Shown: positions 1,511 through 22,564 of the stretch, in pieces
Position numbering within the stretch: the stretch's first letter is position 1
Layout of the letters: each line of letters opens with the position of its first letter
Origin: a virus
Virus record (IMG/VR): IMGVR_UViG_3300044530_000276
Location: 1 to 22,564 of that record
Length of the DNA: 22,564 nt
Direction: 5' to 3' (one strand)
Made by a program: the position numbers and the translations under genes
Notes under the pieces: generated by a model
What the model was told of the DNA's origin: nothing
What the model saw: the letters and a program-made list of their open reading frames with translations, nothing else
Database searches by the model: none

Positions 1511-3306
<1,796 letters not shown>

Positions 3307-3307
<1 letters not shown>

Positions 3308-7688: not shown

Positions 7689-10600
7689 CTAGTATCCATA
7701 TCCTGAAGTGTAAACTGATACGTCACCAAGTTTATCTCCATTAAAGTAAATGTCATGAACGCGCCTGAATCCAGGATACATTCTATCTAATTCTGAAACC
7801 ACTAAATCAAGTGCTTCACCAACGTAGGCATTAGCACGTGCATCAACAGTTTTTCTGCCACTGGCTTCTTTAGCAACTTCTAGTTCGGCCATTAACTTGC
7901 CACGAGCCTTGACATATTCTTGCATAGCAGCAACGGTAGGAATATTCTTTCCAACCGTATTCATGTAATTGCTATTGCTTAGCATTTCCTGAACCAATGC
8001 AACGTTCTTGTCTACACGATTCTGTCGTGAAGTAACATCACGAGCACCCCATAGTGGGTAGGTATCTGCAACCTTAAACTCTAGTTGCTTCTTTGCTTCG
8101 CCGTATGTCTTGTCATAGGCTACAGTACCCTTTTGAATACCTGCTGCACGAGCAGCGTTTTCAATTTTCTCAACACCAGCATAGTACTCACGATTACCGG
8201 AACGAACCTGTAGGTCTTCAGCAGCAGTCATTCTATCTTGTGCGCTATACTTGATTGGCTTACCGTTGATTGTGATGCTGTACATGGTGTCAGCAACAAC
8301 AGGTGAGTACTCAGCATTCCAATCACCCTGGTTGAAGAACACACCAATAAGAGACTTATCTGAAGTCATCTTATCTGCTTGTTCAATCAAGTTCTGGTTT
8401 GAATAGATTCCAGAAAGAGTCTTGTCTGTTGAGTTGAAAGCAAAGCGATTATCTGTTTGACTATCAGTTAATAACTTAACAACGTACTCACCTTGAGTAA
8501 TGTTTAACTTATCAGTAAACATTGCAGTACCAAGGTCGTAGCCATTCTGCTGAATGCTACGTTGCAACTCTGGCTTTAATGTTAAGTCAGTTGATGTGCG
8601 GAAACGTGATGACGCAATAGTAGGTAAACCATTGGCAACAGCCTCAAGCCAGAACGAGTTGATTGCTAGGGCAATAGACCTGTTACGAACATCTTCAATT
8701 ACAGCACCAGTGATTGGAGTGTTTGATTCTGCCATCTTAATTAACTTGTCCGTTTGAATAACATTGACACGGTTAGCAAACTTTGTTCCAGTTGATGTGC
8801 TGTCGAATGAACCACTCATACCACCAATGGCGGTCATTGCTGCCTGTAGTGCAACAGAGCCACCACCAAAGGCAGATGTTACAGTTCCGGTTACACCTTC
8901 ACCCTTTGTAGAATCATAGAATGGTTGTACATAACCAATGGCATCTTCAAGTTTGATACCAAATGCATCCATGAACTTAGTTGTGCCATACTCTTTACCA
9001 GCAATGAAACGAGATACTGTTCCAAGTGCAAGTGAAGCAATTGGACTACCAAGTTGAGGAACACCAATAGGTTGTCCCTGGAACATTACGTCAAATCCAC
9101 TAAGGGGAATCTCAGCCTTCATACTTGAGTCACCAGCAAAGAAGTTATCTGTCATCCACTTAGGATAGTCCATAAGCATGACGTGACCCTTGATATTCCA
9201 AGGTGTAGCAATCTGACTTGTATTTGCATAATACTCGTCACGGTTCTTTACAGTGCCAATACGGTATGGTGTGGTGTATGCTTCAACGATTCTAATGGCA
9301 ACATCAGGATTACGTATAGCGGTACTTAGCCAGTACTTTGCTGAGTTCTGTTGAGCCATGTAGAATGGCGACATGAACTTAAGAACCCCACCAATATTTG
9401 TGTGACGTTCTACGGTATACAGACGGTCAATTACAGCCTTATGCGCTGCACGAGCAGCAGACTGTTGAATTTGCTTAGTGTAGTCTGCAACGTCTTTGCC
9501 CTGTTTAGCAATGCTATTAGCCATGCGAGTGCCTTCAGCACGATAGACTGCATTGTAGAATGGATGACGAACAAGGGTATCTTCTGGCATTGTAGCCAAA
9601 GCATGGAACAAGTTGCCGACAAGGTTTCTGTAGAAGATTCCAACGCCAGTTTCTCTCTGTGCTTTGTTTCCATATACAGCAGAACGGAACTCATTAGGTA
9701 TTAAGGCAGATTGGATTTCAGTGAACTCTCCATCTTTAAGCGATTGACGCAAGAAAGAAAGGTCCTCATTAGCAGGTCCCTTCATAGGAAGGTACTTCTC
9801 TACGTCAGCAAAGATGGTTTCAGTTACGTCACTCCACTCAGCAGTGCTTAGTTTTTCACGGTAACTGTTTAAGTCAATGCGCTTTTCTGCACGCCAAGCG
9901 TCAGATGCAGGGCTATTAATCCAGTTAAGTAGATGTTCTTTAATTTCTGCATTGCTGTAATTGCCATCAAGGTAATCTCTGATTTCCTTAGGGGTCTTTC
10001 CAGCCTTCTTCATCTTCTCAACTTCTTTAGCAATAACCTTATCTGCCTTGTTTCGTTGAGTTACAGATAGGTCTACTACAATCTTACCAGCATCATCACC
10101 GTAGACTATGTTATTAACATACTCTGCATGTGCTCCAGTCCATTCAGCAGCATCAGTAGTTGTAATAAGTGACTGTCTGTTGCCAGTATTAAACATGTTT
10201 CCGAACGTAGTACGACGTGAGTTAAGCACTGCACGACTTGTACTGTTAGCAGAACTTACGCTAGAACGCTCAATATTGTTTAGGTAAGGAGCATCTATAG
10301 TAACACCAGGTGCAATTTTGATTGGCTTACGAGAGTAAGCAAAACCTTTTTGTGGAGCAACTGTGGTCTTACTTAGTGCATTCTTCCAGTCACCCATAAT
10401 CTTTACACGAGTGTCAAATGCACCCATTGTTACCTGTGCATTATCGGAAAGAAGTGCAAACATTTCGTCTGCTTTCTTTAAGTTTTCTGCAAAGATTGGG
10501 TTTCTCTTTGAGTTAACACTAGATGATACATTGGCAATCTTCTTGCGTGCGCTATTGGCACGTGTTGAAATCATGCTAAGAGTCTTAAAAACTAACTGTG

Positions 10601-13367
10601 GGTCTGATTGAACTGAGATATTGTATGCCAACTGGTAGTCACCAGAACGCAATGCATTCAATAGTGGTTCAGATACAGCACCTTTTTTAGTTACCTTAAA
10701 AATGCCATCAGATATCTTTGAGATTTCATCTGCAACTTGTTTGTTTGCACCACGGTATGTCTTAAAGAATCCAGTAGTGCGCATTGTTGCTTCAAACGAT
10801 GCAGCAAGAACATCTTTAGCCTGCTCAAGGAAGTAATCTCCCTCTTCACGATATCGTGCAGCAATCTTCTCTACAATAACTAGACCATCGTCGTTGGTTA
10901 TACCAAATGTTCTACCAATTTCAAGTTCGTTTTCAAACTTAGTTGCTTTTACTGCGTCAAATCTGCCCTTTGTTCCACCAGTACCAATGAGACCTTCACG
11001 TTGTACACGTGATGTAACGCGGTTTGTTGCGCTACGAATTGGTTCTGTTATTGCAGATGGACTAAAGAAACCTTTTGCAAGTGATGTCGCACTATATCCA
11101 TAGTGTGTGGTCATATCTGAAATACTAGATAGAACACGACCCCATCCTTCAAATACGTTACGACTTGAGTAACGTAGGGATAGAAGTACCGATGGTTTCC
11201 ATACATAGTTCTGAAAATCATTATACCATTGTGTCAAATAGTAATCTTTGGACTTTACAGCCGCTTCTTTAAGGCCCTGACCAAGACCAGGAGCAATATC
11301 CTTAACGTCATTAAGCAGTTTTACTGCACTTGACGAAGTTGCTTCAGGGTCATTACGTACATGTGATACAAGTGCGCTTACAAGAGTCTTATCATCTCTC
11401 ATAATCTTATCAAAGAGCGAGAAATCAATACCAAAGTGTACGTTAGGAACCTGAGTGCGGTACAATGGTGTGTTGGTTAGCAGGTCAATGGCTTGTTTTG
11501 TAAACTTATCTGGATTACTTGTGTAATCCACCTTGTTATCAGCAGCAATCTTTCTAGCAAGGTCATCAACCTTGTCCTTAAGTTCTTTTAGAACAATGCT
11601 ATCGCCAGTAACGTCATCAACATGCACGTAATTCTGTTCGTTAATGATTCTCTTGAGGTGATTAATTTTGTTTACACGCATATCATCAGCCATTTTTTGA
11701 ACTACTGCAGATATAGTCTTAAACTGTTCGTCATTCATGTTACCATTTAGGTAACGCTTGATTTCAGCCTCTTGTCTTCCGGCAGCGCGCATCTTCTGCA
11801 CTTCTTCAATGACCTTTTTGTCCTTTGGGTCACGGACAAACTTTTTAAGAATCATACGCTTAAGCACTTCTTCTTCAAAGTCATCTAAATACTGGAATCT
11901 TTGTGAATCAGTTGCAAGTTTAATGTAACCATTGTAGTAATTCTTCTGTTCTTCAACGGTTAGTTTAGCGACAGGGGCTGCTTGCAGTAGACGTGCTCTG
12001 AATTCGTCACCAGATTCACGGACCGACTTGCCTGCAATGGTAACAGAACCAGCAGGAACTTCACGTGGCTTAAATGTTGGAGTTAAATATCCAACAGTGC
12101 GTATCGCACGAGAGCCATAACCATAAAGTTTAGATAGTGCTTTTGCTTCTAGGGCATCATCAATTGGGTTGATGTCAACGTACATGCCTCGTGCGCTAAC
12201 TTCAGCACCAACACGACGCAGGTGTTCGTAAAAAGCAAAACGACTAAATGCTTGTTCCTGTATTTGTGGAACAATTGATTCTCCAGCAACTTCTTGAATT
12301 ACTGATAGTTCGGAACGTGTAGTTCCAAGTTCTTTTCTTACAGCCTTTAACTCTTCTTGGCTCTTTAGAAGGTCAGCGTTTGCTTTTTCTTTTGCACGAA
12401 TCTGAGCGGGAGTTAACTTAGGAGTATCGTAGCGTTCAAGTTTCTTGTTTACCTTGGCAATGTCTTCTTTGATTGCCTGCTTGTTTGAGCGAAGCAAATC
12501 AATTTGATTAGCAAGTTCTGGAACTTTAGCAGCAATCTCATCATACTTGTTGATATCACCAATGCCAACCTGTAGCACATCAATAACTGAGTCACGACCA
12601 CCAACCTTAGCAGCGTTAGAAAGCACGCGAGAAAGCGTTAGAGAGTCTTGTGAGCGAGCAACGATTGGAAGTAACTGCATTGTTGCTGGGTCATTAGCAA
12701 ACTTCATGATTGAATCAACAGTTACCGATGCACCATTTTTTACAGTTACATCTCTTGCTGATTCAAGTTCATTAGAAAGTTTTCCAATTTGATTTATCTT
12801 AGCACCAAACGGAAGATTGATTACAGTACGACGAGTTCCAGTAGCGGCAAGTTTTGCTACCTTAAGTGTCTTACCAGCAAACATTAATGGGTCAAGGAAT
12901 ACGTTAAACAAGAAGTCAGAACCACCAGAAATTTTCTTCTGAAGGCTTCCCTCTTTAGAGAAGTATCCATTAACCTGCATTGAATCTGCCCAGTTAATTT
13001 TATCCGCTTGTTGTTGCCCCGGAACATAACGACCAACAGCACCTACAAGTGCTTGTCCAGGAGAAATAAAGGAAGAACGTTCCCATCCAGTATTCCATGC
13101 ATTGCGAAGGTCAGCAGGATTCTTGGCATCTTTTATGGCTTGTAAGCCAGCAGACAATGGGCGCGAAACAAGTTTGCTGTAAGGCATTGCAAGTTTCTCG
13201 GCAGGACCAGCAACAAAGTCATTTACTAAAGCATTAGTTGCACCGCGTTTAATTCCACCAACAACGCCATACTCTTGGAATACACCAGGAACTTCTTTAA
13301 CGTTTTCAATAGTTGTACTTGCGGTTTTTTCCAACCAATCGCCAACACCATTCATAATGTCAGCCAT
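7689..13367 (-). CDS. Giant 1892-aa virion-associated protein, possible ejection protein
   Basis: At 1892 residues this is by far the largest product here. I start it at the ATG beginning MADIMNGVGDWLEKTAS, which overlaps the stop of the 57-aa gene by 8 bases; an in-frame ATG 24 bases earlier would lie inside that gene and lacks a Shine-Dalgarno. It is largely helical: an early segment FLFNVFLDPLMFAGKTLK (about residues 152-169), a coiled coil at about 285-362, and a helical unit present twice (about 514-546 and 1106-1140, sharing KVI-x-EV-x-KM-x-x-AG and EI-x-x-YL-x-GN). Around residues 1300-1360 is a conserved-looking part (NLVGNLFHALATMPEDTLV). Size, helicity and position suggest an internal virion or DNA-ejection protein. 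I see no lytic-transglycosylase, protease or RNA-polymerase motif. A tape-measure role is less likely because no tail-tube genes accompany it. Confidence 0.8.
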   Translation of the reverse strand: MADIMNGVGDWLEKTASTTIENVKEVPGVFQEYGVVGGIKRGATNALVNDFVAGPAEKLAMPYSKLVSRPLSAGLQAIKDAKNPADLRNAWNTGWERSSFISPGQALVGAVGRYVPGQQQADKINWADSMQVNGYFSKEGSLQKKISGGSDFLFNVFLDPLMFAGKTLKVAKLAATGTRRTVINLPFGAKINQIGKLSNELESARDVTVKNGASVTVDSIMKFANDPATMQLLPIVARSQDSLTLSRVLSNAAKVGGRDSVIDVLQVGIGDINKYDEIAAKVPELANQIDLLRSNKQAIKEDIAKVNKKLERYDTPKLTPAQIRAKEKANADLLKSQEELKAVRKELGTTRSELSVIQEVAGESIVPQIQEQAFSRFAFYEHLRRVGAEVSARGMYVDINPIDDALEAKALSKLYGYGSRAIRTVGYLTPTFKPREVPAGSVTIAGKSVRESGDEFRARLLQAAPVAKLTVEEQKNYYNGYIKLATDSQRFQYLDDFEEEVLKRMILKKFVRDPKDKKVIEEVQKMRAAGRQEAEIKRYLNGNMNDEQFKTISAVVQKMADDMRVNKINHLKRIINEQNYVHVDDVTGDSIVLKELKDKVDDLARKIAADNKVDYTSNPDKFTKQAIDLLTNTPLYRTQVPNVHFGIDFSLFDKIMRDDKTLVSALVSHVRNDPEATSSSAVKLLNDVKDIAPGLGQGLKEAAVKSKDYYLTQWYNDFQNYVWKPSVLLSLRYSSRNVFEGWGRVLSSISDMTTHYGYSATSLAKGFFSPSAITEPIRSATNRVTSRVQREGLIGTGGTKGRFDAVKATKFENELEIGRTFGITNDDGLVIVEKIAARYREEGDYFLEQAKDVLAASFEATMRTTGFFKTYRGANKQVADEISKISDGIFKVTKKGAVSEPLLNALRSGDYQLAYNISVQSDPQLVFKTLSMISTRANSARKKIANVSSSVNSKRNPIFAENLKKADEMFALLSDNAQVTMGAFDTRVKIMGDWKNALSKTTVAPQKGFAYSRKPIKIAPGVTIDAPYLNNIERSSVSSANSTSRAVLNSRRTTFGNMFNTGNRQSLITTTDAAEWTGAHAEYVNNIVYGDDAGKIVVDLSVTQRNKADKVIAKEVEKMKKAGKTPKEIRDYLDGNYSNAEIKEHLLNWINSPASDAWRAEKRIDLNSYREKLSTAEWSDVTETIFADVEKYLPMKGPANEDLSFLRQSLKDGEFTEIQSALIPNEFRSAVYGNKAQRETGVGIFYRNLVGNLFHALATMPEDTLVRHPFYNAVYRAEGTRMANSIAKQGKDVADYTKQIQQSAARAAHKAVIDRLYTVERHTNIGGVLKFMSPFYMAQQNSAKYWLSTAIRNPDVAIRIVEAYTTPYRIGTVKNRDEYYANTSQIATPWNIKGHVMLMDYPKWMTDNFFAGDSSMKAEIPLSGFDVMFQGQPIGVPQLGSPIASLALGTVSRFIAGKEYGTTKFMDAFGIKLEDAIGYVQPFYDSTKGEGVTGTVTSAFGGGSVALQAAMTAIGGMSGSFDSTSTGTKFANRVNVIQTDKLIKMAESNTPITGAVIEDVRNRSIALAINSFWLEAVANGLPTIASSRFRTSTDLTLKPELQRSIQQNGYDLGTAMFTDKLNITQGEYVVKLLTDSQTDNRFAFNSTDKTLSGIYSNQNLIEQADKMTSDKSLIGVFFNQGDWNAEYSPVVADTMYSITINGKPIKYSAQDRMTAAEDLQVRSGNREYYAGVEKIENAARAAGIQKGTVAYDKTYGEAKKQLEFKVADTYPLWGARDVTSRQNRVDKNVALVQEMLSNSNYMNTVGKNIPTVAAMQEYVKARGKLMAELEVAKEASGRKTVDARANAYVGEALDLVVSELDRMYPGFRRVHDIYFNGDKLGDVSVYTSGYGY

Positions 13368-13533
13368 TGTCAGTACCAATCTTTTGACCATTGTTAAGTT
13401 GTATTAGTTGTGCAATAAACTTGTTGCGGTCATCTGACGACTCCCACTTAGTAATTGCAAAAGGGAATGCTACGTCAGAGTTTTCCACACCAAAGATATT
13501 TACAAACGCTGTAACATCTTCTTGGAAACTCAT
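13360..13533 (-). CDS. 57-aa protein between Pro-rich and giant genes
   Basis: This short gene encodes 57 residues, starting MSFQEDVTAFVNIFGVENSD and ending KIGTDNG. Its ATG (13533-13531) shares one base with the TAA of the upstream gene, and its TGA (13362-13360) overlaps the start of the giant gene by 8 bases. Both junctions are of the coupled type used throughout this operon, which is good evidence that it is real and which also fixes the start of the giant gene. It is acidic, has the readable core FPFAITKWESSDDRNKF, and has no membrane segment. Function unknown; it may be a small partner or regulator of the giant product's translation. Confidence 0.75.
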   Translation of the reverse strand: MSFQEDVTAFVNIFGVENSDVAFPFAITKWESSDDRNKFIAQLIQLNNGQKIGTDNG

Positions 13534-13976
13534 TATTTTTGTGACTCTACCTTTACGTAGTTGACAAATGCCTTAAATGTTTCTGGTGCATCTGGCTGGG
13601 TTGCCATTGTTTCAAGTGCTGGCATGTACTTGTTAATCATGTCATAGTTGCCAGCAGGAGTTGGTACAGGACTTTCGCCAGGACCAATTGGAACTCCAGC
13701 AGTAACTGGTTCTTCTGGTCGCTGTGTTGGGGCAAATAGACCCTGTAGTGGTGATTGTGGTGCTGGAGCAGTAACTGGTGCAGGTGCTGGTGTACCACCA
13801 GACATTGGCGCACCTTGTTGTGCTTCCATCAATGCTTTACCTTCGCCATACTTACCACTTCCAGCCATATACTTTGCGCCTTGAGTTGGTCCACCGTCTG
13901 TACGACGTGATAGTTTACCTGGTCCTGAAACTGGTGCAGGGTTGGCTGGTCTGCGATATCCACCTTGTTTAGCCAT
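13533..13976 (-). CDS. Pro/Gly-rich virion-module protein
   Basis: This 147-residue protein begins MAKQGGYRRPANPAPVSGPG and continues KLSRRTDGGPTQ, an N-terminus I recall as common in phage genes located between portal and capsid genes in actinophage-like genomes. Residues about 40-110 are a Pro/Ala/Gly-rich disordered stretch (PAPAPVTAPAPQSP), and the last 40 residues form a helix (MINKYMPALETMATQPDAPE). The start overlaps the end of the Ntn hydrolase gene by 8 bases. Its role is unknown; the disordered basic N-terminus and helical C-terminus could suit a protein that binds another head component. There is no enzyme motif. Confidence 0.78.
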   Translation of the reverse strand: MAKQGGYRRPANPAPVSGPGKLSRRTDGGPTQGAKYMAGSGKYGEGKALMEAQQGAPMSGGTPAPAPVTAPAPQSPLQGLFAPTQRPEEPVTAGVPIGPGESPVPTPAGNYDMINKYMPALETMATQPDAPETFKAFVNYVKVESQK

Positions 13977-14490
13977 CTTGCTTTCCTCGTTTCACAATCT
14001 GTATTTTACCACCACTGTTTATATCAAACTTAATGGCAGTTCTCATTGCTTGTCTAATTGTAGCACCAGCGTGGTATGCACCTAGTGCAAGTTCTCCACC
14101 AGTACCCATTGCATAGATTCCAGTATCAGTGCGAAGCACTGAGTAATCTTCAGCAACATAGTAAATCTTGTTATCTAATCCTATTAGGAAAGAAAACCCA
14201 TCTTCTTTTTCTAGATTAACTCCAGTAGAGTCATGTGCTTTCTTTAACTCCGGGATAACCTTGCTAACCATAAAACGGTATCCGTCAGTTCCATCGTATC
14301 TAGGTAACTTCCATCCATACTGGACAACATCACAGAACCTTGCATTTCCTGCCCCAGCAATTACATAGTCACCATCTTCGGTGATTTTCCTAACATCACT
14401 GTGCATATAGGGGCGTTCGTTTTCAGTGATTTGGCTATCTGCTGCAAATACAAAACCATTTGGATATTGTACTGCTAAAATTGTTGTCAT
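13969..14490 (-). CDS. Proteasome/HslV-like Ntn hydrolase, candidate head protease
   Basis: This 173-residue protein begins MTTILAVQYPNGFVFAADSQ, the signature of proteasome beta/HslV-type peptidases. After loss of Met the N-terminal Thr2 would be the nucleophile. Asp18 (in AADSQ) corresponds to Asp17 of mature proteasome subunits, and Lys35 (VRKI) lies within one residue of the catalytic Lys33. Gly-rich MGTGGELALGAYHAG (128-142) matches the later conserved Gly/Ser region. The length fits HslV (about 175). No ATPase partner (HslU) is present. It lies 2 bases after the portal gene, where prohead proteases usually sit, and no other protease gene is visible, so capsid maturation is a reasonable inference. 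Alternatives are a role in host protein turnover or a non-proteolytic Ntn amidohydrolase. Confidence 0.82.
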   Translation of the reverse strand: MTTILAVQYPNGFVFAADSQITENERPYMHSDVRKITEDGDYVIAGAGNARFCDVVQYGWKLPRYDGTDGYRFMVSKVIPELKKAHDSTGVNLEKEDGFSFLIGLDNKIYYVAEDYSVLRTDTGIYAMGTGGELALGAYHAGATIRQAMRTAIKFDINSGGKIQIVKRGKQDG

Positions 14491-18646: not shown

Positions 18647-18661
18647 TAACAGTACTGTTAG
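18646..18661. promoter_or_regulatory. Palindrome copy 1, CTAACAGTACTGTTAG
   Basis: Exact 16-bp palindrome, the first of five in the rightward half. It lies 31 bases upstream of a candidate promoter for the HTH gene and about 190 bases before that gene's start. An operator for the HTH protein (autoregulation) is a natural hypothesis. Confidence 0.8.
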
Positions 18662-18691
18662 ACCCATTGCCTAAAGGGTTATTGGCTCAAG

Positions 18692-18719
18692 TTGCGTATC
18701 TGTGGAATGTGTGTATTCT
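18692..18719 (+). promoter_or_regulatory. Candidate promoter for HTH gene
   Basis: TTGCGT (18692-18697) and TATTCT (18714-18719) are 16 bases apart. It is the best sigma-70-like pair close to the HTH gene, though both boxes are imperfect. Transcription would begin near 18726, giving a leader of about 125 bases that contains three hairpins. Confidence 0.3.
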
Positions 18720-18793
18720 TGGAGTGTGGACATTGTGCAATTCTGCAATGGCTCACTTGTAACCTGATAACTCAATAGCGCGTAGGTGTCCCT

Positions 18794-18845
18794 AGTTGGG
18801 CAACTGCTCACAAGATTTGTGAGTGGTTACTCATCTAGGAGATGA
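18794..18845 (+). promoter_or_regulatory. Structured leader covering the HTH gene's RBS
   Basis: Three stems follow one another: AGTTG/CAACT (18794-18805), CTCACAA/TTGTGAG (18807-18823, loop GAT) and TCATCT/AGATGA (18831-18845, loop AGG). The last holds the Shine-Dalgarno AGGAG (18837-18841) in its loop and right arm. Together with the 9-base spacing to ATG 18851, this arrangement could reduce translation until opened. The stems are seen directly; the regulatory effect is inferred. Confidence 0.5.
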
Positions 18846-18850
18846 ACACA

Positions 18851-19420
18851 ATGAATAAATTGCAACTAACAGAAGCAACAGGCAACGCGATACGCGTAGC
18901 CATTGAAGCCCAAGCAACAGCGAAGCGAGCAGTTATCGAAGCGAGCGAAGCCGTTAACGTTAGCGATAGTCGCGTAAATGATGCTTGTGAAATTGCCTTC
19001 AAGGCATCTCAGGCAGGTATCACAGGCGACGCCATTGCAAAGGTCGCTGGCGTAACTGCAATGACTGTTAGCCGTTACATTGCTGGCGGTAAGTTGATGA
19101 TGCAGACAGAAGGCAAAATCACAGGAAGCAAGGCAGTTAGCGACATGGGTAATGGTTACTTAACCGTAGGAACGGTTAAGGAATGCGAGAACGTGAGCCA
19201 ATACAATAAGGCAGTTGCTGAAGGCAAGAAGGCTAAGGCGGGCAAGGCGGGCAAGGCAGATAAGCGTGAGCCTATCGAAATTGCACAGAGTCACGTCGAA
19301 GCATTAGGCAAGGCGATTAAGTCAGGCAGGGTAACCCTTGAACAGGTAACCGATTTATTTGCAGACATGGTAACCGACCTAATGGCAGAAGCCGAAGCAG
19401 AAGAGATGCAAGAAGCATAG
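18851..19420 (+). CDS. Helix-turn-helix DNA-binding protein, candidate regulator
   Basis: This 189-residue protein is the first gene of the rightward block. Residues about 54-83 (AGITGDAIAKVAGVTAMTVS then RYIAGGK) form a clear helix-turn-helix of the type in which a second helix 'T-x-x-TVSRYI' reads DNA. It is preceded by an Ala-rich helix (residues 8-50) and followed by a basic Lys/Ala/Gly linker (125-139) and an acidic C-terminal helix (160-189). I start at ATG 18851, 9 bases after AGGAG; the ATG at 18842 touches AGGAG and is unlikely. It has its own terminator, so it is probably a single-gene unit. It is the best candidate in this window to bind the CTAACAGTACTGTTAG sites, one of which lies upstream of it. 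Whether it represses or activates is unknown. Confidence 0.82.
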   Translation: MNKLQLTEATGNAIRVAIEAQATAKRAVIEASEAVNVSDSRVNDACEIAFKASQAGITGDAIAKVAGVTAMTVSRYIAGGKLMMQTEGKITGSKAVSDMGNGYLTVGTVKECENVSQYNKAVAEGKKAKAGKAGKADKREPIEIAQSHVEALGKAIKSGRVTLEQVTDLFADMVTDLMAEAEAEEMQEA

Positions 19421-19432
19421 GGACACACCAAG

Positions 19433-19466
19433 AAAATACCCCAGAGAAATCTGGGGTATTTTTTTT
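19433..19466 (+). terminator. Strong intrinsic terminator after HTH gene
   Basis: A perfect 13-bp stem (AAAATACCCCAGA at 19433-19445, TCTGGGGTATTTT at 19450-19462) with a GAAA tetraloop runs into a T-tract (19459-19466). It lies 12 bases after the HTH gene's stop. It should end that transcript, so the following genes need their own promoter in 19467-19668. Read leftward it also has an A/T-rich end but no transcript is expected there. Confidence 0.93.
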
Positions 19467-19486
19467 GTCCAAAATTAAGTTAGTTT

Positions 19487-19502
19487 CTAACAGTACTGTT
19501 AG
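19487..19502. promoter_or_regulatory. Palindrome copy 2, CTAACAGTACTGTTAG
   Basis: Exact 16-bp copy, 20 bases after the terminator T-tract and ahead of the small-gene operon. This non-coding place is suitable for an operator controlling that operon's promoter, although I cannot pick a convincing -35/-10 pair nearby. Confidence 0.8.
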
Positions 19503-19538
19503 GGTTTTGCTGGTGTACTGCTCGTGTATTGCTTGAAT

Positions 19539-19575
19539 ACTACTGATTTGGTGCTTGCACTACTGATTTGGTGCT
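19539..19575. repeat. 17-bp direct repeat, 20-bp period
   Basis: ACTACTGATTTGGTGCT occurs at 19539-19555 and at 19559-19575. The 20-base period puts both copies on nearly the same face of the helix (about two turns), as expected for a pair of cooperatively bound sites. It lies in the non-coding stretch before the small-gene operon, between palindrome copies 2 and 3. Confidence 0.8.
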
Positions 19576-19640
19576 AAGTTGCGAACGGATTGGATACCTG
19601 ATAGACTGAACGTAGTTCAGGAGATGCTTGAACGCTGTCA

Positions 19641-19656
19641 CTAACAGTACTGTTAG
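19641..19656. promoter_or_regulatory. Palindrome copy 3, merged with a Shine-Dalgarno
   Basis: Exact copy whose last bases (TTAG) run into GGAG, so the palindrome and the ribosome binding site of the gene at 19669 overlap. The 20 bases TAACAGTACTGTTAGGAGTT are identical to those at copy 4. As RNA it could fold into a 6-bp hairpin touching the Shine-Dalgarno. Confidence 0.85.
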
Positions 19657-19668
19657 GAGTTGGGTGAC

Positions 19669-19878
19669 GTGAGCAAGGGCAAAGGTATGCGTGGGTATGA
19701 CGGTTCAACCGTTCCCACTAATCGGGTGCTACGAAGTGCCTCTTATGTACAGGTGAGGACTGTTGCTAAGGTACAGTTGCGAACCAACTGCAAGTCCAGT
19801 AAGATACGAGTATCGTACAACGCTGAGGCTATCGCCAAAGCATTAGCCGTACTGGGTAACAGTACTGTTAGGAGTTAA
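19669..19878 (+). CDS. Small basic protein, unknown
   Basis: I do not recognise this 69-residue protein. The start is GTG 19669, 9 bases after AGGAG; a TTG at 19660 would abut the Shine-Dalgarno. It is strongly basic (Lys and Arg spread throughout, e.g. SKGKGMRGYDG, YVQVRTVAKVQLRTN, KSSKIRVSYN), with a helical AEAIAKALAVLG near the end. That could suit nucleic-acid binding, but there is no motif. Its last codons contain palindrome copy 4 (NSTVRS), which also carries the next gene's ribosome binding site. It is the first gene of the operon that leads to the amidoligase. Confidence 0.65.
   Translation: MSKGKGMRGYDGSTVPTNRVLRSASYVQVRTVAKVQLRTNCKSSKIRVSYNAEAIAKALAVLGNSTVRS
19857..19871. promoter_or_regulatory. 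Palindrome copy 4, 14-bp core merged with a Shine-Dalgarno
   Basis: The core TAACAGTACTGTTA (19857-19870) is exact; the outer C of the 16-mer is G here (19856). It runs into GGAG (19871-19874), the ribosome binding site of the gene at 19880, and lies in the coding end of the previous gene in a frame different from that used by copy 5, so conservation is at DNA or RNA level. Confidence 0.82.
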
Positions 19879-19879
19879 G

Positions 19880-20071
19880 ATGATTACTAAAGACATTGAA
19901 GTGCTGGCTTACTACGAAACTATTGACGGGTCAGGTGCAATGTTAAGTCAGATGTTCACCTATGACTGTCACAAGTGCGACTACTCACACGCTAGAGGTA
20001 GCCGCCTACTATCGGAGATTGCTAGGCAGATTGCCGAGCATGTACTAACGCAAGAACATCAGGAGAAATGA
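19880..20071 (+). CDS. Small putative zinc-finger protein
   Basis: This 63-residue protein starts at ATG 19880, 5 bases after GGAG, just after the previous stop. Residues 30-33 are CHKC and two histidines follow at 54 and 60 on a predicted helix (LLSEIARQIAEHVLTQEHQE), which gives a C-x2-C-x20-H-x5-H pattern. The linker is longer than in a classical C2H2 finger, so a finger-like metal site is possible but not proven. The N-terminal strand part (IEVLAYYETIDGSGAML) has no family I recognise. The stop shares bases with the start of the next gene. It may bind nucleic acid or act as a small partner protein. Confidence 0.7.
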   Translation: MITKDIEVLAYYETIDGSGAMLSQMFTYDCHKCDYSHARGSRLLSEIARQIAEHVLTQEHQEK

Positions 20072-20265
20072 TGCGTACTACATGGAAAGAAATGGTTGCC
20101 TTCCTTATGGATTGGCGCGACTACCTTAACGGACTCAAGCCCGCGAGCCATGCAGAGTTGGGCTGGTCAGGTACTGATAGTGATACCCCTATCTATGATG
20201 AGTTGCTAGAGATGGCTAAGCATTATGGTTGGGCATACCCAGGCAAGGTGTATGACAATGAGTGA
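20071..20265 (+). CDS. Small acidic protein, unknown
   Basis: This 64-residue protein is unrecognised. Two ATGs (20068, 20071) are in frame; 20071 is 5 bases from GGAG and 20068 only 2, so I take 20071. The sequence is Trp/Tyr-rich (WKEMVAFLMDWRDYLNGLKP and YGWAYPGKVYDNE) with an acidic middle (GTDSDTPIYDELLEMAKHYG). The start overlaps the previous stop by one base, and the end overlaps the next gene by 8 bases, as expected of a coupled operon. Function unknown. Confidence 0.65.
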   Translation: MRTTWKEMVAFLMDWRDYLNGLKPASHAELGWSGTDSDTPIYDELLEMAKHYGWAYPGKVYDNE

Positions 20266-20419
20266 AGAACCAACATGGAAAGATGAGGCTATCTCTTGGT
20301 ACGCTAGTGACCTACATGAGATGGGCTACATCAAGAATGAAGATGAGTGGAACGAGTTGCTCAATCTGCTATGCGAAACTGTGCAAGTACATCTTGAGGA
20401 GATGAAAGACAATGGCTAA
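20258..20419 (+). CDS. Small acidic helical protein, unknown
   Basis: This gene encodes 53 residues from ATG 20258 (MSEEPTWKDEAISWYASDLH). The start lies 7 bases after AAGGTG, and the first bases overlap the previous stop (ATGAGTGA). Longer in-frame starts would lie inside the upstream gene and lack a ribosome binding site. The product is very acidic and likely two helices (DEWNELLNLLCETVQVHLEE). It has the opening W and D/E richness seen in small early phage proteins, but I know no function. The stop overlaps the next start by 8 bases. Confidence 0.62.
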   Translation: MSEEPTWKDEAISWYASDLHEMGYIKNEDEWNELLNLLCETVQVHLEEMKDNG

Positions 20420-20597
20420 GGCACACATGACCAAGATGTACTGGTTTGAGTCTGAGGTAGATAAACTAATCGCACAAGGTGTCCCTAATGGTGAGGCACT
20501 ACAAATAATTCTGGATAGGCTTACCACTATGGATAGTATCGAGTGGTACGAACCAACCAACAACCTAACAGTACTGTTAGAACAGGAGGAACTCTGA
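20412..20597 (+). CDS. Small helical protein upstream of amidoligase
   Basis: This 61-residue protein starts at ATG 20412, 10 bases after AGGAG and overlapping the previous stop by 8 bases. It is helical (SEVDKLIAQGVPNGEALQII) and acidic at the end (LLEQEEL). Palindrome copy 5 lies inside its last codons (NLTVLL) in another frame than copy 4. Its TGA shares one base with the amidoligase ATG, so the two are translationally linked. The tight join may mean that it helps the amidoligase, but there is no motif to test this. Confidence 0.65.
   Translation: MAKAHMTKMYWFESEVDKLIAQGVPNGEALQIILDRLTTMDSIEWYEPTNNLTVLLEQEEL
20565..20580. promoter_or_regulatory. Palindrome copy 5, before the amidoligase
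   Basis: Exact 16-bp copy ending 16 bases before the amidoligase ATG, followed by AGGAGG. It is inside the coding end of the previous gene but read in a different frame from copy 4, so protein sequence does not explain it. It marks the amidoligase start as a regulated point inside the operon. Confidence 0.85.
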
Positions 20598-21796
20598 TGA
20601 CTGACATAGATACAACATACCTTGATGTTGAGGTAGATGAACGACAAGTAGTATGTTGTTATGGTACATGTACTAACACCATAGACATGGACAATGACAC
20701 ATACGCACTTGATAGTAGCGAGGATGCGTACTGCGAGGCTCACATCTTCCTATGCAACTGGTGTAACTGCACATTCCCAGACACCGAGGTGCACGATAAC
20801 TTCGGTGGTTACTGTGTCCCATGTGGCAACAGAATGTCTACATGTGACAGATGTGGTAGGACTGAACACGAGAATGACATGTACAACATTAGTAGTGATG
20901 ATTGGTGTCACAGTTGTTACGAGGATTACTCTGAGCATTGCAGTCGTTGCGATTATAGTTATGACCCTAGACAGGGTAGGTGTTGTGGTGGTAGCCATGA
21001 TGTCCATGACTATGGTTACAAACCTTATCCTCAGTTTCATTGGGTAGATAACGACCCTGATGCTGACCGCCATGTATTCATGGGCTTTGAGTTAGAGGTT
21101 GAGTCTAGTGGTGATGACTATGATGGTCCGGAATTAGTGGAGTCATACTTAGGCGACCTTGCTTACTTCAAGGAAGACGGCTCACTTAATGACGGCTTCG
21201 AGATAGTCACGCATCCAATGACCCTTGCCTATGCACACAGCATGAACTGGGAATGGACTAAAGGTCTACTGGATAAGGGCTATCGCTCATGGGACAGGAG
21301 TACCTGTGGCTTACATGTTCACGTTGATAGACGTGGCTTCAATGGTAGGTTACATCAGTACTCATTCACCCTGCTACTCATGCGTAACAAGGCTTTGTCT
21401 TACCTAATTGCAGGTAGACAAGGCAACTCGTATGCATCCTTTGACAAGAACGTACGCACAGAAATACCTAAGCATCTAAAGGGTCAAGACAACTGTGCTC
21501 AACGGTATTCTGCTGTCAATGTACTACCAACATCTACCCTTGAAGTGCGTATGTTCAGGGGTTCACTAAAGAAAGAACGCATACTCGCTGCACTTGAGTA
21601 TGTGCATAGTGCCGTAGAGTATTCACGCGGTGCTAGGTCAGGTGTTGGTGCTGAGGAATACTTAACAGCACCTGCATTTATCCAATGGTTACGAGGTAAC
21701 AAGGCTTTGTATCCAAACCTATTAAGTTACATAAATCAATCAGTCGAGTTCGGCTTTAGCGAGAAGTCCTATACTTCTCAGAATAGTGGAGAGTAA
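20597..21796 (+). CDS. Amidoligase-like enzyme with N-terminal zinc fingers
   Basis: I start this 399-residue protein at ATG 20597, after AGGAGG and sharing a base with the previous stop. Residues 1-130 carry 17 cysteines, mostly as CxxC pairs (53/56, 73/76, 83/86, 104/107, 115/118, with 20/21/25 and 129/130), like stacked treble-clef or LIM-type zinc fingers. Residues about 160-345 look like the amidoligase (COOH-NH2 ligase, Pfam Amidoligase_2-type) fold: GFELEVE (163-169), KEDGS (192-196), GFEIVTHP (200-207), CGLHVHVD (237-244) and LEVRMFRGS (315-323). Known members of this glutamine-synthetase-like group use ATP to join a carboxylate to an amine; the substrate here is unknown. The next gene, a glutamine amidotransferase, could supply ammonia. 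The zinc fingers may direct the enzyme to nucleic acid or protein. Confidence 0.82.
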   Translation: MTDIDTTYLDVEVDERQVVCCYGTCTNTIDMDNDTYALDSSEDAYCEAHIFLCNWCNCTFPDTEVHDNFGGYCVPCGNRMSTCDRCGRTEHENDMYNISSDDWCHSCYEDYSEHCSRCDYSYDPRQGRCCGGSHDVHDYGYKPYPQFHWVDNDPDADRHVFMGFELEVESSGDDYDGPELVESYLGDLAYFKEDGSLNDGFEIVTHPMTLAYAHSMNWEWTKGLLDKGYRSWDRSTCGLHVHVDRRGFNGRLHQYSFTLLLMRNKALSYLIAGRQGNSYASFDKNVRTEIPKHLKGQDNCAQRYSAVNVLPTSTLEVRMFRGSLKKERILAALEYVHSAVEYSRGARSGVGAEEYLTAPAFIQWLRGNKALYPNLLSYINQSVEFGFSEKSYTSQNSGE

Positions 21797-21798
21797 TT

Positions 21799-22564
21799 AT
21801 GTGTATGCTATGTGTATCCCTTCCAGGGTCACGTCCAACACGCGAGCAGTTAGAGATTGCTTGCTATAACAACAACGATGGCTTCGGCTATGCAGTAAAT
21901 CATGGTGACCACATTGTGGCTGGTCGTGGTATGCTGATAGATGTCACCATTGACAGGTTCTTTGCTGAGTTAGATAAGAATCCCAACGCTATCGGTATGT
22001 TCCACGCACGTCTTACCACACATGGTACGACACACGTTGAGAACAATCACCCATTCAGGGTAGATGGTCGCAAGGACATTGTGTTAGGTCACAATGGTAT
22101 GCTTCCAGTTACTATCAAACCTGGTGACAAACGCTCAGATACCCGTATCTTTGCTGAGGATTTGCTACCTAGCATGGGTGTCGGTGTGCTCGACGACCCT
22201 GCATACTTCAAGCAACTAGAGGACTGGGCTAGAGGTAGCAAGATTGCTATCCTCAACACATCACCTGACCTCAAGGACGACGTGTACATTCTCAACGAGA
22301 AGGACGGTCATTGGGCTGATGGTGTGTGGTGGTCTAACACCTCATACAAGTCACGCAGTTACTGGGCTACCAGTTACACTGGTGGGTACTACAATGGCTA
22401 TGCATCTAAGGAGGACTATGACTTCTTCGAGAGAGACAAGCATCTACTGCTATCATCTGATGAATTGCTTGATGCTGACGGTACTGTCAGAACTATCTAT
22501 GATGTGTGCTACCATTGCTACTCACACCTACGAGAGGACGACTACAACGAGGGTGCTTGCACTG
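21799..22564 (+). CDS. Class II glutamine amidotransferase (C-terminus cut by window edge)
   Basis: 255 codons are visible, without a stop. The ATG at 21799 is 5 bases after GGAGAG, and the preceding amidoligase stops 2 bases earlier. After loss of Met, Cys2 would be the catalytic nucleophile (MCMLCVS). Further PurF/GlmS-type features are GFGYAV (28-33), FHARLTTHG followed by NNHPF (68-86), LGHNGML (96-102) and SDTRIF (113-118). This is the glutaminase domain, releasing ammonia from glutamine. After about residue 190 the sequence is Tyr/Ser/Gly-rich, and near the edge C237-x2-C240 and C254 hint at a zinc ribbon. No synthase domain (as in GlmS or PurF) is visible, so the neighbouring amidoligase is the likely ammonia user. 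A host-type asparagine synthetase is excluded by the motifs seen only if the missing C-terminus is short. Confidence 0.85.
   Translation, partial: MCMLCVSLPGSRPTREQLEIACYNNNDGFGYAVNHGDHIVAGRGMLIDVTIDRFFAELDKNPNAIGMFHARLTTHGTTHVENNHPFRVDGRKDIVLGHNGMLPVTIKPGDKRSDTRIFAEDLLPSMGVGVLDDPAYFKQLEDWARGSKIAILNTSPDLKDDVYILNEKDGHWADGVWWSNTSYKSRSYWATSYTGGYYNGYASKEDYDFFERDKHLLLSSDELLDADGTVRTIYDVCYHCYSHLREDDYNEGACT

Follow-up and report, generated by a model that had tools for sequence, protein, structure and literature searches.

The two genes at the right end of this viral record raise the question of whether a cysteine-rich amidoligase and the glutaminase that follows it work as one enzyme, and if so on what. 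The window analysed here is the whole stretch of 22,564 bases, which is an entire IMG/VR virus record. Minus-strand late genes (terminase, portal, major head protein) lie in its left part and small plus-strand genes in its right part, the amidoligase and the glutaminase being the last two (Table 1). The amidoligase runs from an ATG at 20597, closely preceded by an AGGAGG ribosome site, to a stop at 21796, and since the glutaminase ATG is at 21799 the gap between them is 2 bases. The small ORF upstream of the amidoligase (20412-20597), considered as a candidate substrate peptide, belongs to a family recovered in close relatives only. The hosts of the phage are probably actinobacteria, because a WhiB gene was present in 69 viral loci (for example L003:12381-12881, shortly downstream of the pair).

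Table 1. Positions of the features discussed, in window coordinates.
Feature	Position	Strand	Basis
Zinc-finger amidoligase (predicted), 399 aa	20597..21796	+	ORF, Pfam, alignment, model
Class-II glutamine amidotransferase (glutaminase), cut by window end	21799..22564	+	
Codons of the five CxxC pairs (residues 53-118), N-terminal putative zinc region	20753..20950	+	Sequence and conservation
14-bp palindrome TAACAGTACTGTTA, just upstream of amidoligase start	20566..20579	.	One of five exact copies
Helix-turn-helix protein, candidate regulator of the repeated palindromes	18842..19420	+	

The preliminary description had read the first gene as an amidoligase-like enzyme with five or more CxxC pairs, and this was borne out by five pairs (residues 53-56, 73-76, 83-86, 104-107 and 115-118), an Amidoligase_2 match and a GS/GCS fold. 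In an alignment of 74 relatives the cysteines of these pairs were invariant or at least 90% conserved, and C130 was invariant. Residues ~20-134 are cysteine-rich and look LIM-like or like a tandem zinc ribbon, and we infer that this N-terminal region binds zinc. Pfam LIM matched 15/74 relatives, with a linker between pairs of 6-7 residues versus 2 in LIM, where the spacing criterion is C-x2-C-x~17-H/C-x2-C-x2-C-x2-C... The match of the window protein to Pfam Amidoligase_2 (PF12224) was a marginal pass (22.3 bits, cut-off 22), and the same profile matched all 74 relatives at E<=0.01.

We sought a solved amidoligase structure by sequence and obtained a chance match only. The AlphaFold2 model of the amidoligase had a mean pLDDT of 83, and residues 153-389 were modelled confidently as a GS/GCS fold; residues 160-345, which had been assigned to the amidoligase fold beforehand, lie inside this domain. 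The best structural match was YbdK (Z 13.1, rmsd 3.8, 217 residues), with glutamine synthetases next (Z up to 12.2), and PafA (the Pup ligase), Dop (the depupylase) and plant GCL were also in the Foldseek list. A Z of at least 8 was reached by 223 of the 1000 compared chains, a comparison that covered structures in Foldseek's list, and families outside it may still match. Invariant in all 74 sequences were G163, E165, E167, D194, S196, H240, H242, R274, N308, E316 and R318, which make up the motifs GxExE, DxS, HxH, R, N and ExR, a putative active-site set of acidic, His and Arg residues. Alignment and model together show gene 1 to encode a predicted carboxylate-amine ligase of the GS/GCS fold with these family-invariant residues.

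Gene 2 had been described as a stand-alone glutaminase domain with an N-terminal Cys, and both the conservation of Cys2 and the other motifs and a GlmS-type model agreed with this. The window holds a fragment of 255 aa that runs off its end. The complete protein in locus L003 (298 aa, 91% identical) also has a CxxC-rich module at its C-terminus and is followed by a 100-aa ORF and then the WhiB gene. Across the phage-type glutaminases Cys2, H69xR71, T74, HNG (98-100) and D114-T115 were invariant, so that the Cys2, His and Asn motifs, the loss of which in relatives would have spoken against the assignment, were kept. Both curated alignments, A5 and A7, likewise kept Cys2 without exception, and removal of Met would expose this residue. 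Residues 1-180 were modelled mostly at pLDDT >90. The model matched the GlmS glutaminase domain (1xff) with Z 14.2 and EgtC with Z 13.7, values that are equal within error.

Sequence profiles were more selective and favoured the Gln-hydrolysing enzymes, matching 25/26 glutaminase members for GlmS, 22/26 for PurF and 2/26 for EgtC; the two EgtC matches were weak (best E 0.00059) and the NCBIfam TIGR03442 cut-off was not reached. With 19-20 bits the window fragment fell short of the Pfam cut-offs for GATase_4 (PF13230; 23 bits) and GATase_6 (PF13522; 27 bits), and its class-II assignment therefore rests on structure and motifs. A clostridial glutaminase partner passed a curated Pfam GATase cut-off. 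These comparisons show gene 2 to be a class-II glutaminase with a predicted intact active site. The actinophage type carries the C-terminal CxxC-rich module, the first four cysteines of which are at least 90% conserved, while the clostridial partners form a separate subtype with a GlmS/PurF-like RGxDAxGI motif and without the module. A RING-like domain at the glutaminase C-terminus was considered and rejected (non-significant match, E 1.2).

To follow the pair through other genomes we kept the best 80 of more than 450 ligase relatives in viral contigs and the best 80 of more than 420 in genome contigs. A same-strand glutaminase was found in 162/170 recovered ligase loci, almost always directly downstream and with a median separation of about zero, and several of the eight loci without one were truncated contigs. 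Among terminase-anchored contigs, all 12 with the amidoligase also had the glutaminase and none had just one of the two. Nine records of sister phages, 31-41 kb long, had no amidoligase, and where sister loci were inspected the corresponding region was filled by other small genes. In sister phages without the pair (L294, L308, L317, L319 and L324) a gene of about 326 aa there was called DUF932-like by eye. The pair is thus an accessory unit with joint gain or loss, and the adjacency and joint presence support the functional pairing that had been suggested. The further pathway genes expected to the right of the pair did not appear in relatives, where the WhiB gene and replication-type genes lie downstream, and among the recovered loci, which span very different elements, no third gene was a conserved companion of the pair.

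Two further observations were not counted as support. Mirror-tree distances of ligase and glutaminase correlated with r 0.92 (partial 0.69), and this was set aside because the neighbouring WhiB gene scored nearly as high (0.89). The natural fusion in locus L046 was rejected as proof of interaction, as it is a deletion that left the ligase truncated at its C-terminus and the glutaminase without Cys2. A search for known defence systems gave no PADLOC match.

The phages with the pair belonged to Mycobacterium, OM43 methylotrophs, Acinetobacter and human gut communities, and chromosomes with the pair to Nocardia, Rugosimonospora, Actinokineospora and Amycolatopsis. Ruminococcus and its relatives had many such loci, with as many as nine ligase matches in a single genome when fragments and interrupted copies are counted. 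The usual gene order there was DUF960, ligase, glutaminase, resolvase or integrase. A same-strand recombinase lay within 2.5 kb downstream in 43 of the 62 Ruminococcus-type loci with room for one, a MobA/VirD2-like relaxase was near the pair in 21/80 loci of Ruminococcus and relatives, a probable ribbon-helix-helix (RHH) gene likewise in 21/80, and some loci also had a TrwB/TraG-like coupling protein. From gene content these loci look like integrative mobilizable elements. Several, among them L105, L107, L163 and L180, combined DUF960, ligase, glutaminase, recombinase, relaxase and the probable RHH gene.

In Nocardia a phage-type integrase was near the pair, and in Actinokineospora an ArdC-N anti-restriction-like gene followed directly after it. 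The Actinokineospora locus, with the ArdC-like gene near, also holds a gene of the HamA (Hachiman defence) family about 6 kb from the pair (L106:15691-16452, minus strand). The Rugosimonospora locus with the pair has, at its edge, a gene for a protein with Caspase and Roadblock domains (L104:2-1804).

We sampled genomes of Bacillota, of the class of Ruminococcus and of Actinomycetota and scanned them for PF12224. The sample comprised the recovered loci and low-scoring places; ligases were classed by their cysteines and downstream partner, and near-duplicates were removed. The results showed a glutaminase beside 11/13 zinc-finger ligases and a gamma-glutamyl cyclotransferase beside none of the 13, whereas 29/36 zinc-less ligases had the cyclotransferase and 0/36 the glutaminase. 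Fisher's test gave p of about 3e-9, a value that ignores kinship and overstates independence because the genes are related by descent. Two separate clades, and not two mechanisms, may underlie the split. Outside the sample, the zinc-less ligase of locus L021 has a glutaminase, and podovirus cassettes carry both kinds of partner. CxxC pairs are less numerous in the ligase homologues of Marvin and the OM43 phages, so that the link between the zinc array and the gene pair is not strict.

The pair itself is already described, for mycobacteriophage Marvin, for OM43 phages and in the proposal of Iyer 2009, to the extent that the citing literature relays it. PMC10580990 reported the OM43 phage pair as PF12224 plus PF13522 and refers to previous proposals on Marvin and phiEco32. 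Marvin (gp105/gp106) and the OM43 phages MEP401/402 have a homologous pair, adjacent and in the same order, at a protein identity to the window of about 25-36%, but with fewer CxxC pairs in the N-terminal regions of their ligases and, in MEP402, a glutaminase without the C-terminal zinc module. In the podovirus peptidoglycan modification cassette (phiEco32, LUZ24-like, StenR_269) Amidoligase_2 and class-II GATase genes lie close together, but the window pair is not accompanied by any of the enzymes that the cassette adds: an ATP-grasp enzyme, another ligase and a gamma-glutamyl cyclotransferase. Clostridial amidoligase and GGCT pairs such as Tn6164 orf22-23 share an Amidoligase_2 gene, a small downstream partner and a location on mobile DNA; the sampled members, however, had neither zinc fingers nor a glutaminase, and the partner is the cyclotransferase. 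YbdK/GCS and the glutamine synthetases share the fold of amidoligase residues 153-389 at a sequence identity of about 9-16%. These enzymes are not known to carry a zinc array or to have a glutaminase as partner.

The zinc-finger/glutaminase subclass, its contrast with the cyclotransferase subclass and the Ruminococcus element-like contexts were not found in the accessible literature (Iyer 2009 and the Marvin paper being outside its scope), and the subclass and its element contexts look like a new form of the known pair. The preliminary description knew of no experimentally defined substrate, and none was found in the same literature. Amidoligases are common in phage genomes, and what emerges here is a subclass set apart from the zinc-less, cyclotransferase-linked one and common to phages, Ruminococcus element-like loci and actinobacterial chromosomes. 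As it is a self-contained two-gene unit, a direct functional test is practical.

From sequence and models, we give a probability of about 0.5 to the reading that the pair forms one glutamine-dependent, two-subunit amidating enzyme, an accessory cassette of phages and other mobile elements. Gene 2 would hydrolyse glutamine, the ammonia would pass to gene 1, and gene 1 would activate a carboxylate with ATP and convert it to an amide. The putative zinc-binding N-terminus of gene 1 might recognise a macromolecular host target or dock the glutaminase; candidate targets are a cell-wall precursor, a protein or a tRNA. As the pair is found in very different elements without a conserved third gene beside it, the target is probably a component common to many bacteria. 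The most probable benefit would be an altered host component that blocks rival phages or host defences. The mobile contexts, with relaxase, coupling protein, integrase or resolvase and an ArdC-like neighbour, were counted in favour of the amidating enzyme.

Two alternatives are substrate-specific versions of this reading. The first is that the pair amidates peptidoglycan, at the D-glutamate or diaminopimelate of precursors, like MurT-GatD or AsnB, and so serves superinfection exclusion or lysis control. The hosts are mostly actinobacteria and clostridia, and MurT-GatD offers a likeness, by description, of a separate ligase and glutaminase acting jointly, GatD being a class-I glutaminase. According to PMC3267633, peptidoglycan amidation by this ligase and glutaminase is established and MurT is a Mur-ligase-type enzyme. 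The Iyer 2009 proposal, in the form cited in PMC10580990, and the 'peptidoglycan modification cassette' idea for the podoviruses point the same way. However, zinc fingers would not be expected in an enzyme acting on a small lipid-linked precursor, the pair has no conserved cell-wall gene beside it, and it also occurs in phages of Gram-negative hosts. We regard this version as possible but tentative.

The second version, which we consider doubtful, has a host or phage protein or a tRNA as substrate and the zinc fingers as a targeting device, by analogy with the Pup ligase PafA of the same fold. The usual ligands of LIM-like zinc modules are proteins or nucleic acids. The presence of PafA and Dop among the fold matches, the Pfam LIM matches in some relatives and the CxxC module on many actinophage-type glutaminases would all fit, but the pair has no conserved tag protein as a partner, and the role of the zinc region could be simply structural. 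A more specific form, that a zinc-finger-guided GS-like ligase and its own glutaminase amidate a particular host protein or RNA to switch a defence off or take a process over, is distinctly unlikely. If true, it would describe a widespread mobile-element enzyme class and a post-translational or RNA modification of undescribed type.

The main rival outside the amidating reading is a gamma-glutamyl cycle, in which the amidoligase would join the gamma carboxyl of glutamate to an amine, like its structural relatives YbdK and glutamate-cysteine ligase, and an EgtC-like GATase would remove or edit the product, as EgtA and EgtC do in ergothioneine synthesis. It takes that place because gamma-glutamyl amides are cleaved by cyclotransferase and EgtC-like enzymes alike and the two share one gene position, the cyclotransferase of the zinc-less Amidoligase_2 systems standing downstream where the glutaminase stands here. 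YbdK as top fold match of gene 1, plant GCL in the same list and the near-equal EgtC match of gene 2 fit the cycle, and PMC5498523 places the cyclotransferase and the glutamine amidotransferase of the related podovirus cassette among degradation genes. However, the glutaminase profiles prefer GlmS and PurF over EgtC, the clostridial partners are GlmS/PurF-like, and a third enzyme acting on the intermediate would normally be needed, while none is conserved with the pair. The profiles and the absent third gene lead us to favour an amide synthetase, short of proof, and we consider the cycle unlikely. That the genes are chance neighbours without functional coupling is very improbable, since tight gene packing is frequent in phages but the adjacency holds across distant hosts and the pair is gained or lost jointly.

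A palindrome at the amidoligase start had been taken as a sign of dedicated control. The palindrome is real, but the dedicated control did not hold, because the palindrome is a phage-wide repeated operator-like site. Exact copies of TAACAGTACTGTTA start at 18647, 19488, 19642, 19857 and 20566, all in the early region, within 18647-20579. Close relatives had repeated compensatory variants (GACAGTACTGTC, GACGGTACCGTC and GACTGTACAGTC), mostly with a single main variant in each phage, and in more distant relatives other palindromes were repeated. The variants co-vary with the recognition region (helix) of the nearby HTH protein, and this variation in step, with the five copies, led us to reject a dedicated amidoligase operator. 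The palindromes are a phage-wide putative operator set that includes the amidoligase, and together with the HTH protein they suggest an operator-regulator specificity system resembling phage immunity groups.

Three minus-strand genes in the left part of the window were also recorded. An HslV/proteasome-like Ntn hydrolase gene (13969-14490; PHROG 'peptidase HslV family', E 1.4e-34) adjoins the portal gene and is possibly a head-maturation protease. A protein of 1900 aa (7689-13391) matched solely PHROG phrog_10618, an entry annotated as of unknown function. A collagen-like protein with GPTGPTG repeats (1511-3307) is probably a tail or fibre protein.
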